Shown in pieces: positions 15,906 to 19,959 of a stretch of 64,000 bases of DNA. Both the position numbers and the translations under genes were made by a program. Source of the DNA: Haloferax litoreum (GTDB lineage Archaea > Halobacteriota > Halobacteria > Halobacteriales > Haloferacaceae); the NCBI RefSeq assembly GCF_009674605.1, contig NZ_WKJO01000001.1, forward strand, positions 2,108,001 through 2,172,000. The letters are read 5' to 3'. Under the pieces are notes generated by a model, which was not told where the DNA came from, ran no database searches, and saw nothing but the letters and a program-made list of their open reading frames with translations. Positions within the stretch are counted from its first letter, which is position 1, and every line of letters begins with the position of its first letter.

Positions 15906-16080
15906 GTCGCGTCTCTCTCCTTCGGATACTCCGTCCGCGTTCACTTTCACTCGCGCCAGACACTCTTTTCGCACGTCAACACACCACTCGGATTCTGAGC
16001 CGCCCCAACCCGACAATTTCACTTTCACTCTGCACCCATGGCTCGCACTTTACACGCCACACCACGACGTACGAACCGAG

Positions 16081-16773
16081 ATGGGAACTGACACGCCGTC
16101 GGCGTGTCCGCGACTCGAACCGGGGGTGATGCTCCTCAGGCGTCCCCGAGAGGGCCGCCACGCGCTCCACCGACTGGTGACCGCCGAACTCGCCCGGCGT
16201 GACGGGAGCGCCTACTGGGTCGATTCGCGGAACGACGCCGTCACGCACGCGCTCTACGAACACGCACAGTCCAGACGGACGCTCCGGGGCCTCCGAATCG
16301 CCCGTGCGTTCACCGCCTACCAGCACCACGAACTCGTCTCGTCGCTTCCGGGGCGTGTCTCGTCGCGGACGGCGCTCATCGTCGTCCCGCAACTGCCGGC
16401 GCTCTACCGCGACCCAGACGTCCCTGCGGGCGAGGCGCGGACGCTGTTCGACTCGGCGGTGACTATCCTCGATGCACTCGCCGAGTCGCTGTCTGTCCCG
16501 ATACTCGTGACCGCACGCGAGGGAACGGACGACCAGTTTAGCGACGTACTCGCCAACACTGCGGACCGGACCGTCGAGTGTCGCGACACCCGCGAGGGCG
16601 TGGCGTTCACCGGCGAGGACGTGCAGACGCTCGTGTATCACCACCGTGGCTACTGGCAGACGACGATTCCGTACTGGGTCGAACTGCTCGGTGTCGCGCC
16701 CGAGGGAGACCTCGCACACGTCGGTCCCACCACCGTTCCGACGCTCGACGCAGTCGCGGCGGAGGGATGGTGA
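16081..16773 (+). CDS. degenerate RecA/RadA-like protein
   Basis: 230-aa protein with a RecA-like layout but no functional nucleotide site visible. A strand-loop-helix sits where Walker A should be (LLRRPREGRHALHRL, residues 18-32) without a GK[ST]. The Walker B-like strand TALIVVPQLPALYRD (97-111) has Pro where Asp is expected, and ILVTARE follows. It overlaps the next small gene at TGATG and precedes the PolB-like gene, forming a three-gene unit. The RecA-fold assignment is from pattern and context; a structural comparison would settle it. Confidence 0.6.
   Translation: MGTDTPSACPRLEPGVMLLRRPREGRHALHRLVTAELARRDGSAYWVDSRNDAVTHALYEHAQSRRTLRGLRIARAFTAYQHHELVSSLPGRVSSRTALIVVPQLPALYRDPDVPAGEARTLFDSAVTILDALAESLSVPILVTAREGTDDQFSDVLANTADRTVECRDTREGVAFTGEDVQTLVYHHRGYWQTTIPYWVELLGVAPEGDLAHVGPTTVPTLDAVAAEGW
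16761..16765 (+). promoter_or_regulatory. ribosome-binding site deciding the start of the small middle gene
   Basis: GGAGG lies 7 nt before the ATG at 16773 but only 1 nt before the in-frame ATG at 16767. The spacing favours 16773, within the TGATG overlap with the upstream stop. Confidence 0.6.
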
Positions 16774-17072
16774 TGGGCCGGACGAATCCCACCTATCGGG
16801 ACGCACTCCGACGGTACCGCGAGTCGTGGTCGCCGTACCGCCGTGCGCTCCGTGCGGAGGCGAAGGCCGACTTCGACCGGTTGTTCGAGCGCGCGCACGA
16901 ACACGCTGCGGCGGCAGGTCACGCGAACCCCGCCGACCCGCATCGTGCAGTCGTCCTCTCGATGCTCCTCTCGCAGGAGCGCGAACTGCGACGCCTCCGT
17001 GAGCGCGTCGGTACAGAGATGGACACCACCCCAGAGACCATCACAGACGCCAGCGACGACACGGGCGAGTAA
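16773..17072 (+). CDS. small helical protein of the PolB-like cassette
   Basis: 99-aa protein without a recognised family. It is strongly helical and Arg-rich (YRDALRRYRESWSPYRRALR, then MLLSQERELRRLRERVG), suggesting a coiled-coil or DNA/protein-binding linker, with an acidic tail. It begins in the TGATG overlap with the RecA-like gene and ends 2 nt before the GTG of the polymerase-like gene. The tight packing argues for a function with both neighbours. Confidence 0.65.
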   Translation: MGRTNPTYRDALRRYRESWSPYRRALRAEAKADFDRLFERAHEHAAAAGHANPADPHRAVVLSMLLSQERELRRLRERVGTEMDTTPETITDASDDTGE

Positions 17073-17074
17073 CC

Positions 17075-19198
17075 GTGTTCGCGGTCGATTTCGACGGCGA
17101 CGATGTCGTCGAGTGGCACCTCACCGACGACGGTGCCCGCTCGCACCGCGTGACCGACTACACCCCAGAACTGTACGTCTCCGGGCCGGAGTCGGTGCTC
17201 ACCGACCTCTGTCGGCGTCTCCGCGCCGACCCCACCGTTGCATCGGTCGGCTACGAACGACTGTACCCCCGCCTCGACTCGCGCGAGCGAACCGAGGTGC
17301 TCCGCGTCGCTCTCGTGGCCCCGCGAGGTGTCCGCCGACTCGCTCGTCGCCTCCGCGACGACTTGCTCGGCCGGGTCTCGCCTGGTGCCGTCCGCTTCTA
17401 CAACGTGGACCTCTCGCCGGGGTTTCGGTACTGTGTGCAGACCGAGACACCCCCGGTCCCATCTCGTCGTCCCCGCACACTTCGGCTCTCCTTACCGCAG
17501 AAGTCACTCGCCGACGGCGACCTCTCGGTGCTGTCTGTCGCCGGTGACCCGGTCGCTGGCGACGAACGCGGCGTTGTGGAAGTAGTCGCCGAAACACTCG
17601 CCGAACAGGACCCGGACGTACTCGTCGTGAACTCGGCGCGCCTCTTGCCACTCCTTCGTGACCGCGCCGCGCAGTTCGAACTCGACTGTCCACTCAGTCG
17701 CGACCCGAACCGTGGTCTCGAACGACTCGCCCGCCAGAACACCGTCGTGAGTTACGGGACGGTCCGACACTCGCCGGCGAGATACGCCGTTCCGGGGCGG
17801 GCTATCGTCGATACCGGGAACAGTTTCCTGTGGGCGGAGTCACGCCTCGACGGCCTGTGCTACCTCGTCGAGCGCTCGTGGAAACCACTGCAAGAGGCGT
17901 CGTGGGCGAGCATCGGGAACGTGCTGACGGCGATGCAAGTGCGCGAAGCGATGGACCGCGACGTGCTCGTGCCGTGGAACAAGCGCCGGCCGGAGACGTT
18001 CAAATCCGTCGAGACGCTCCACGCGGCCGACCGCGGCGGGTTCACCTTCGACCCGGTTGTCGGCCTCCACGAGGATGTGGTCGAACTCGACTTCGCCTCG
18101 TTGTACCCCCGTATCATCTGTGAGTGGAATATCTCGCCGGATACGCTCGGATGCGACTGTCACGCCGGGCGCGCCGACATCCCGGAACTCGACTACGCCA
18201 TCTGTGACCGCCGCGGGTTCCTCCCCGACGTGCTCGAACCGCTTCTCGCCGACAGACGACGACTCAAACGCGAAGTCAGCGAAGCAACTGCAACGGGCGA
18301 CGAGTCTGCCGCCGCCTCTGCGCGGGCGAAGTCGGGTGCCATCAAGTGGGTTCTCGTCTCGTGTTTCGGGTATCAGGGCTACCGGAACGCGAAGTTCGGC
18401 CGCATCGAGTGCCACGAAGCCATCAACGCCGTCGCCCGCGACCTGCTCTTGCGGGCCAAAGAAGCGGCAGAAGACGCCGGGTGGCGTGTCGTCCACGGCA
18501 TCGTCGATAGCTTGTGGCTTGCGCAGGCTTACGAGGACCCGCAACCGCCTGCGGACCTCGCAGCGACGGTGACCGACGACTGTGGCATCCCGCTGGAAGT
18601 CGAAGCGACGTACGACTGGGTGTGTTTCGTCCCGACGCGTCAGATGGACCGCGGTGCGCTCACGCGTTACTTCGGCCGAACGAACGGCGGCGACTACGTC
18701 TACAAAGGCGTCGAGATTCGCCAGCGAAGCACGCCGACGTTCGTCGCCGACGCCCAACGTGACTTGATTTCGACGCTCGACAGACACCGCGGCCCGGCGG
18801 CGGTCTGTGACCGACTGGTCCGCCACCGCGCCCGTCTCCGACGGAGCGACGTTCCAACCGAGGAGTTACTCGTGACGAGTCGCCTCTCGCGGGCACCCGC
18901 GGACTACGACCGAAACACGCTCGTCGCCGCTGCCGGGAAGCGTTCCGTCGAACTCGGAGTGCCACGCGAACCGGGTCAGTCCGTCCGGTACGTCGTCGCC
19001 GACGAGGACGGGCGCGACACCGACAGAGTTCGACTCGACTTCGAGCGTCCCCGCGCGGACGACGTCGACGTCGACTACTACGACCGTCTCTTGATTCGGG
19101 CGGCCGAGAGCGTCGTCTCACCACTCGGGTGGAACCGACAGCGCATTCGCCGATATCTCTCTCCGGGGCGGGATGCGTCGCTGTCGGCGTTCGATTGA
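17075..19198 (+). CDS. family B DNA polymerase-like protein with altered catalytic motifs
   Basis: 707 aa, GTG start. Palm motif A is intact (DFASLYPRII, D339). Motif B is altered: K424 is kept, but the usual NSxYG reads VSCFG. In motif C (HGIVDS, 474-479) the first catalytic Asp of YxDTDS is Ile476 and only D478 remains. The exonuclease motifs are also lost: Exo I DxE reads LSLPQ near residue 150, and Exo II lacks its Asp. It thus resembles the inactivated archaeal PolB class. It is likely structural or accessory in DNA repair or lesion bypass with the two upstream genes, and udg follows. Confidence 0.82.
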   Translation: MFAVDFDGDDVVEWHLTDDGARSHRVTDYTPELYVSGPESVLTDLCRRLRADPTVASVGYERLYPRLDSRERTEVLRVALVAPRGVRRLARRLRDDLLGRVSPGAVRFYNVDLSPGFRYCVQTETPPVPSRRPRTLRLSLPQKSLADGDLSVLSVAGDPVAGDERGVVEVVAETLAEQDPDVLVVNSARLLPLLRDRAAQFELDCPLSRDPNRGLERLARQNTVVSYGTVRHSPARYAVPGRAIVDTGNSFLWAESRLDGLCYLVERSWKPLQEASWASIGNVLTAMQVREAMDRDVLVPWNKRRPETFKSVETLHAADRGGFTFDPVVGLHEDVVELDFASLYPRIICEWNISPDTLGCDCHAGRADIPELDYAICDRRGFLPDVLEPLLADRRRLKREVSEATATGDESAAASARAKSGAIKWVLVSCFGYQGYRNAKFGRIECHEAINAVARDLLLRAKEAAEDAGWRVVHGIVDSLWLAQAYEDPQPPADLAATVTDDCGIPLEVEATYDWVCFVPTRQMDRGALTRYFGRTNGGDYVYKGVEIRQRSTPTFVADAQRDLISTLDRHRGPAAVCDRLVRHRARLRRSDVPTEELLVTSRLSRAPADYDRNTLVAAAGKRSVELGVPREPGQSVRYVVADEDGRDTDRVRLDFERPRADDVDVDYYDRLLIRAAESVVSPLGWNRQRIRRYLSPGRDASLSAFD

Positions 19199-19265
19199 AC
19201 GTAGTGAAATCGAGCATGCCGAGCTGTGCTCGGCAGCGTTCGACTGAGCGAAGCGAACTCGATGC
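19189..19265 (+). repeat. imperfect direct repeats flanking a hairpin
   Basis: Two related copies, 19189-19219 and 19238-19265, both begin GTTCGA(T/C)TGA(A/G)CG(T/A)AG and end in a CGA..TGC block. Between them is a perfect 7-bp hairpin, GCCGAGC-TGT-GCTCGGC (19218-19234). The polymerase-like stop codon falls inside the first copy. The GAGCGAAGCGA core recalls the hairpins downstream of tRNA-Ser and tRNA-Glu in this window. Confidence 0.7.
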
Positions 19266-19323
19266 GTGCTGGGCCGACTGCACAGACCGCGTCGATTTTG
19301 GTTCCAGAGTCGAAAGGGAGCGT

Positions 19324-19959
19324 GTGGACGCACACCAACGCCAGTTCCGGAACCCCTTCTCGATGGACACCGACTGCACCAACTGCGAGGCCCTCTGTGC
19401 GGCCCGCGAGCAGGTCGTCCACGGGTACGGCGACGTGGGCGCGGAGTTCCTCTTCGTCGGCGAGGCACCGAGTGCCGACGCAGAGCGGACTGGTGTCCCC
19501 TTCACCGGCGACGAGGCGGGCGAACGAGTCCAGCGAATTCTCGGTGAACTCGGCTTCTCGCGGTCCGACCCCGACGCCGAAGAACCCGACGTGCAGAACG
19601 TGTTTCTCACGTACCTGACTCGCTGTCGTCACCCCGAGCGCGGGCCGACAGAACACGAGATTTCGACGTGTGAGCCGTTCTTGAATGCCGAGATACGGAT
19701 GATAAATCCGCACATCATCGTCCCCGTGGGACAGGCCGCGCTGGAAGCACTCGCGTTCGATTACACGACGCGCTCTGTGGACAGTTTCGATATCGAGGCT
19801 GAGCACGCGACGACCATCCGCGGGCGCGGGTTCGAACTCGTGCCGATGATGGACCCGGCCGAGCAGGCTGACGCGGACACCGAGGCGTTCGTCGAGCACG
19901 TCCGCGAGTCGGTCTTCGAGCGGGATTACCGCCAGACGAAGGGCCGCCGAAGTCGCTGA
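19324..19959 (+). CDS. family 4 uracil-DNA glycosylase
   Basis: 211 aa. It removes uracil from DNA by base excision. The Fe-S cysteines CTNCEALC near the N-terminus and a later pair (TRCRHPE and STCEPF), the active-site block FVGEAPSADAERTGVPFTG, and the substrate loop near the C-terminus mark family 4. The GTG at 19324 is chosen because it is preceded by GGGAG and gives an N-terminus VDAHQRQFRNPF that looks family-like; ATG 19363 is an alternative. It is separated from the PolB-like gene by a repeat element. Confidence 0.88.
   Translation: MDAHQRQFRNPFSMDTDCTNCEALCAAREQVVHGYGDVGAEFLFVGEAPSADAERTGVPFTGDEAGERVQRILGELGFSRSDPDAEEPDVQNVFLTYLTRCRHPERGPTEHEISTCEPFLNAEIRMINPHIIVPVGQAALEALAFDYTTRSVDSFDIEAEHATTIRGRGFELVPMMDPAEQADADTEAFVEHVRESVFERDYRQTKGRRSR

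Follow-up and report, generated by a model that had tools for sequence, protein, structure and literature searches.

A chromosomal operon of the PolB2 mutasome type behind a candidate UV box in Haloferax litoreum

The analysed stretch of Haloferax litoreum DNA (the window, 64,000 nucleotides), from contig 1 of a 3.56-Mb genome, contains three adjacent genes on the forward strand at 16081-19198. The first (16081..16773, ATG start) encodes a 230-aa iRadA, the second (16773..17072, ATG start) a 99-aa PPB2 of the arCOG07300 type, and the third (17075..19198, GTG start) a 707-aa PolB2 family B DNA polymerase. The reading frames of iRadA and PPB2 overlap by 1 nt (TGATG), and a 2-nt gap separates PPB2 from PolB2, so the ORF coordinates agreed with the tight packing described in the initial annotation. 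A fourth gene on the same strand, udg (19324..19959), follows the trio and encodes a family 4-like uracil-DNA glycosylase. Its probable GTG start at 19324 was placed from the conservation of the upstream reading frame, and the protein matched the Pfam UDG profile with 84 bits and the NCBIfam family 4 profile below its cut-off. An inverted-repeat-like sequence, TTCGATTGAACGTAGTGAAATCGAGCATGCCGAGCTGTGCTCGGCAGCG, lies in the gap between PolB2 and udg (19200-19320), and the corresponding gap of H. marinum has it too.

The first protein had been read as RecA-like, with the Walker A Lys and the Walker B Asp missing, and both points held up. In the PDB, a profile built from 12 iRadA proteins matched chains of RadA and Rad51 (E=1.5e-10 for the best of them), and the AlphaFold2 model (pLDDT 88) resembled RadA, Rad51 and DMC1 with a Foldseek probability of 1.00. 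The fold is that of the RadA/Rad51 ATPase domain, and the N-terminal helical domain is absent from the 230-aa model. No GxxGK(S/T) motif is present, and the Walker B Asp position is occupied by Pro103, which was invariant in 42/42 aligned sequences. The Walker A loss was judged from the absent motif and from the position of the strand-loop-helix in the model; the strand itself did not align in the mixed alignment with the RadA of the genome.

The 99-aa protein had been described as a novel helical partner. Its AlphaFold2 model was entirely helical (pLDDT 81), but the protein is not novel. Its size (the family has about 90 aa), its helical structure and its N-terminal MGRT are those of PPB2 (arCOG07300; PMC4104785), and the MGRT signature, published for this family (PMC11791011), rules out the novel-partner reading. 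The residues M, G, R, N, P and T at positions 1-3 and 5-7 were invariant in 13 relatives, which showed one T-to-S change within MGRTNPT; these relatives were gathered by position and similarity, with their starts placed at MGR where present. In a further 40-row PPB2 set MGR(T/S)N was the selection criterion, so the signature there adds nothing. Profile and fold searches for PDB relatives of PPB2 returned nothing significant, and a search of the genome for a second copy found only the one PPB2.

The polymerase matched NCBIfam NF004418 over its full length (823 bits, E=1.4e-247, above cut-off), and Pfam DNA_pol_B and archaeal PolB chains in the PDB were also matched. When compared with Thermococcales PolB structures, the palm and fingers aligned and the proofreading residues did not. 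The acidic residues of Exo II and Exo III are replaced in the alignment to Thermococcales and archaeal PolB sequences, and the exonuclease active site is lost, as had been reported. Two further residues were also as first described: the motif A Asp is D339, within DFASLYP, and Ile476 stands at the first Asp position of motif C, which reads HGIVDSLW and retains the second Asp, D478. An alignment of 12 haloarchaeal PolB2s showed D319, R320, D339, K424, H474, I476, V477 and D478 to be invariant. The motif C pattern HG(I/V)VDS(L/I/V/F)W was found in 76/77 PolB2 ORFs from named genomes; this set was chosen partly by ADRGG, and the presence of ADRGG in 77/77 is hence not independent evidence. Ile476 is the usual PolB2 state, the first Asp of motif C being absent from most members of the family. 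Motif B, which had been considered lacking, is recognisable (AIKWVLVSCFGYQGY) in altered form, with NSxYG reading VSCFG. Its K424, F431, G432 and Y433 were invariant in the 12 aligned proteins and the pattern K-W-x-L-V-x-x-F-G-Y occurred in 76/77, which rules out the loss of this motif. A PCNA-binding tail was also sought on PolB2; the C-terminal patterns found were loose and, set against the clear QTGLGSFV in the PolB3 of the genome, are no proof of one.

PolB2-type proteins were called inactivated by Makarova et al. 2014 (PMC4104785), and the polymerase in the window had likewise been taken for an inactivated one. However, Sulfolobus islandicus Dpo2, in which the same Asp is missing, is an active extender polymerase (PMC8764526). 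Since that enzyme is active and the other catalytic residues hardly vary among haloarchaeal PolB2s, the PolB2 here is probably not dead, with an activity predicted from its homologues. DNA synthesis by a PolB2 is known only for Sulfolobus Dpo2. The two proteins share the PolB2 family, the Ile in place of the first motif C Asp, the invariant His and the D(K/R) loop; they differ in that the activity of Dpo2, a Sulfolobus and not a haloarchaeal protein, is experimental and that of the Haloferax protein is predicted. For the lost Asp in Dpo2, either the invariant His or the D(K/R) Asp was suggested to compensate (PMC8764526), and the D(K/R) motif was later reassigned to PPB2 contact by Timinskas et al. 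2025 (PMC11791011).

The three genes adjoin likewise in relatives. Of 80 named haloarchaeal loci, 76 had a detected PPB2 and 71 a detected iRadA close to PolB2, so the neighbourhood check proposed at the outset found the linkage kept across Halobacteria, and the linkage of iRadA and PPB2 to PolB2 is more than chance. At four PolB2 loci of Haladaptatus, the PPB2 match was weak and the iRadA query had no match; iRadA may be absent there or too diverged. Among named organisms, Haloferax profundi (94%, partial) and H. marinum (87%) have the closest PolB2s. Of the 292 genomes sampled across the class, 191 had an NF004418 match at E<=1e-60. About one third of the sampled haloarchaeal genomes thus had no strong PolB2 match, implying that the function of PolB2 is dispensable.

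The iRadA-PPB2-PolB2 operon was described by Makarova et al. 2014 (PMC4104785), and Timinskas et al. 2025 modelled a Pol V-like "PolB2 mutasome", with models of a PolB2 : iRadA : 3 PPB2 complex for 40 other protein sets (PMC11791011). For PolB2 homologues, activity (PMC8764526) and induction have been published, as have structural models (PMC11791011). The locus in the window has all three genes in one published order, the MGRT start of PPB2, a motif C without its first Asp, a decayed exonuclease and an inactive RadA. It differs in having udg behind it, a UV box in front and no Orc1/Cdc6-like neighbour. The trio is therefore a known system, and the sequence-based regulatory evidence is the new part; we found no report, in the open-access literature searched, of a UV box linked to PolB2 mutasome operons. 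The initial annotation had likened the trio to the bacterial ImuA-ImuB set. Both that set and E. coli Pol V (UmuD'2C-RecA) resemble it in combining a lesion-bypass polymerase or polymerase-like subunit with a RecA-family protein. In contrast to ImuB, which belongs to the Y family, the Haloferax polymerase belongs to family B, and its small subunit is unrelated, which makes the likeness one of analogy and not of membership. The closest published analogue is Pol V rather than ImuA-ImuB. The broader proposal of a three-protein DNA-damage-tolerance complex with a RecA-family subunit fared better, and as a prediction it is supported by the RadA/Rad51 profile and fold and by the conserved operon.

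An alignment of four Haloferax species revealed two conserved islands upstream of iRadA. The first, GTTCACTTTCACTC (15939-15952), begins with a distal copy of the UV box, GTTCACTTTCA (15939..15949, forward strand), which has one mismatch to TTTCACTTTCA and was also matched in the one-mismatch genome scan. The second, ATTTCACTTTCACTCTGCAYCCATGGCTCGCACTTTAC, contains the exact haloarchaeal UV-B box TTTCACTTTCA (16017..16027, forward strand), 64 nt upstream of the iRadA ATG. Between this box and iRadA lies a candidate TATA-like element, TTTACA (16049..16054, forward strand), conserved in the aligned promoter. Boubriak et al. 2008 reported the 11-bp motif upstream of UV-B-induced Halobacterium genes, including radA1 and top6B (PMC2556686), and exact copies about 50 nt before the start codon mark that regulon. 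The Haloferax box is identical and lies at a similar upstream distance, and radA (exact) and top6B (one mismatch) also carry it here. The two cases differ in that the paper makes no mention of polB2 and that UV induction through the Haloferax box is a prediction.

The exact box occurs six times in the genome, versus once for the reversed pattern. Five copies lie upstream of radA, hef, a DUF5790 gene, iRadA and a short ORF, and the sixth lies about 200 nt before a gene for a PLP-dependent enzyme. When one mismatch was allowed, the box gave 32 matches and the reversed control 19, which makes any lone one-mismatch site weak evidence; the box matches include positions upstream of polY (DNA polymerase IV), top6B and an RPA gene. 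The functions of the genes were read after the motif matches had been listed, and some of the matches are not before repair genes. A shorter shared string, CACTTTCACTC, was found seven times in the genome, twice at the iRadA promoter and once upstream of mre11. The DUF5790 protein (147 aa; contig 1, 568258), with its box 55 nt upstream, could be a new damage-response gene product. The short ORF (59-68 aa; contig 1, 408468) had no Pfam match. An orphan site, CACTTTCACTCCGCACCCGTGGCTCG (contig 1, 1902231), matches more than 20 bases of the extended promoter element and is followed by no clear long ORF within 330 nt. A search of the open-access literature found no named regulator of the haloarchaeal UV regulon.

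The background for the box was taken from the reversed-pattern control and from random windows of related loci. Among 71 haloarchaeal iRadA upstream regions, a box with at most one mismatch was present in 11, versus about 0.23 expected from random windows of the same loci, and for 200 permuted motifs the mean was 0.135 and the highest value 6. All 11 boxes are oriented in the direction of the gene, at -44 to -76 by the first start estimate; the 11 loci are related and hence not eleven independent events. Most of the 71 PolB2 operons do not carry the TTTCACTTTCA box. At the trio in the window, the UV box suggests that DNA damage switches the operon on.

UDG was present in 15/15 sampled Haloferax genomes. 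The trio precedes udg in 4 of them, and in the other 11 a DUF gene and udg adjoin without the trio. The complete order Mrp-DUF-iRadA-PPB2-PolB2-UDG was found in two genomes of other genera, and the synteny of box, trio and udg is common to three genera at one chromosomal site, reflecting either ancestry with losses or repeated gain. Among the 80 named loci, those outside Haloferax gave no match to the udg of the window beside PolB2, which rules out udg as a general PolB2 partner. The link to udg noted earlier is thus real, with synteny in three genera, but local. In the alignment of the 11 Haloferax genomes without the trio, a ACTTTCAC element stands between the DUF gene and udg in 11/11, and a longer string, CACTTTCA, lies upstream of udg in 8/11. 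Given this element, udg itself may belong to the UV regulon, and where the trio is present udg is possibly co-transcribed with it.

The box-less PolB2 operons often carry GGAA-N4-6-GGAA upstream. With the spacer fixed at 5, the repeat was present in 28/71 upstream regions versus 0.8% of random windows, an excess inflated by selection, as the pattern, spacer range and distance window were set after viewing the same sequences. Most carriers have it at -57 to -61, a striking position. Under a wider definition, which assigned the box first, the 71 loci comprised 39 with the GGAA repeat (4 only further upstream), 14 with a box of at most two mismatches and 18 with neither; under the stricter count, box and repeat never occurred at one locus. 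An Orc1/Cdc6-like gene (TIGR02928 168.9 bits, just under the cut-off of 181.3; Pfam Cdc6_lid) neighbours 34 loci and 0/14 box loci, a distribution with P=2.5e-5 on the assumption of independent loci, which does not hold. On the PolB2 tree, the box label needed 6 changes, at least 3 of them forced by well-supported branches. Where the Orc1/Cdc6-like gene lies upstream on the same strand (n=27), 16 carry the repeat near their own 5' end, versus 2.4% of background windows. This suggests that the Orc1/Cdc6-like protein is a putative local regulator that controls itself through the GGAA repeat. In Sulfolobus, Orc1-2 binds ANTTTC in the promoter of its own gene and is a DNA-damage regulator, not an initiator (PMC9738581). 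Among the genes examined around the trio in the window, no Orc1/Cdc6-like neighbour was found; the trio is of the UV-box type. We tentatively consider that PolB2 operons might be wired to damage in two interchangeable ways, although we hold this at somewhat less than even odds. One would be the TTTCACTTTCA box shared with radA and hef, and the other GGAA-N4-6-GGAA bound by the adjacent self-controlling Orc1/Cdc6-like protein, in the manner of Sulfolobus Orc1-2 with a different sequence. A gene for SRAP, an abasic-site protein, neighbours 8 of the surveyed PolB2 loci, and SRAP was also seen beside polB2 in a published neighbourhood analysis.

Taken together, we read the locus, with a probability of about 0.8, as a chromosomal PolB2 mutasome operon in which a lesion-bypass polymerase, iRadA and PPB2 are induced through the UV box. 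In such an operon, PolB2, a family B enzyme, would be active and proofreading-deficient and would extend primers beyond lesions or mismatched ends. Judging from the published homologues, iRadA, in which the normal ATPase residues are absent, would dock on PolB2 in the way that neighbouring RadA subunits dock on each other, and one MGRT arm of a PPB2 trimer would reach in beside the PolB2 active site, so that iRadA and PPB2 together might hold and position the polymerase. The UV box would induce the trio after DNA damage alongside radA, hef and other genes of recombination and fork repair. The udg of this lineage might be co-induced, and abasic sites and bypass could then be handled together, which is speculation.

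The box might instead belong to the promoter of udg only, with the trio having landed behind it and not being functionally regulated by damage. The ACTTTCAC element between the DUF gene and udg in 11/11 trio-less Haloferax fits this account. However, the box and the TATA-like element stand at promoter distance from iRadA in four species whose flanking intergenic DNA has diverged, and 14/71 PolB2 operons have a box (at most two mismatches) 35-70 nt upstream in the same direction, mostly in other genomic contexts; we regard a udg-only box as improbable. Makarova et al. (PMC4104785) first proposed that PolB2 is catalytically dead and serves, with the inactive RadA, only as a replication regulator or scaffold; this would explain the missing first Asp of motif C and the loss of every exonuclease acid. 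A scaffold would not need the Asp of motif A, the Lys of motif B and the second Asp of motif C, yet these are nearly invariant, and the activity of S. islandicus Dpo2 (PMC8764526) also speaks against a dead enzyme, which we consider quite improbable.

The role of the operon could also lie in origin control or the initiation of replication, and not in lesion bypass, an option raised in PMC4104785 and in keeping with the Orc1/Cdc6-like genes that adjoin many haloarchaeal PolB2 operons. Such a role is very unlikely here, as this neighbour was found at none of the 14 box-type loci and the related Sulfolobus Orc1-2 acts in the damage response and not in initiation (PMC9738581). An induced PolB2 mutasome operon is the reading that we prefer over all three.

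The trio itself was already known, and this locus is mainly of value as a haloarchaeal example from a genus that is well suited to genetic work. The link to the Orc1/Cdc6-like genes, if confirmed, would tie PolB2 operons to the Orc1-2 response of Sulfolobus. If the box works, PolB2-dependent lesion bypass would be placed inside the haloarchaeal UV regulon, and the control of damage-induced mutagenesis in haloarchaea would become a directly testable question.
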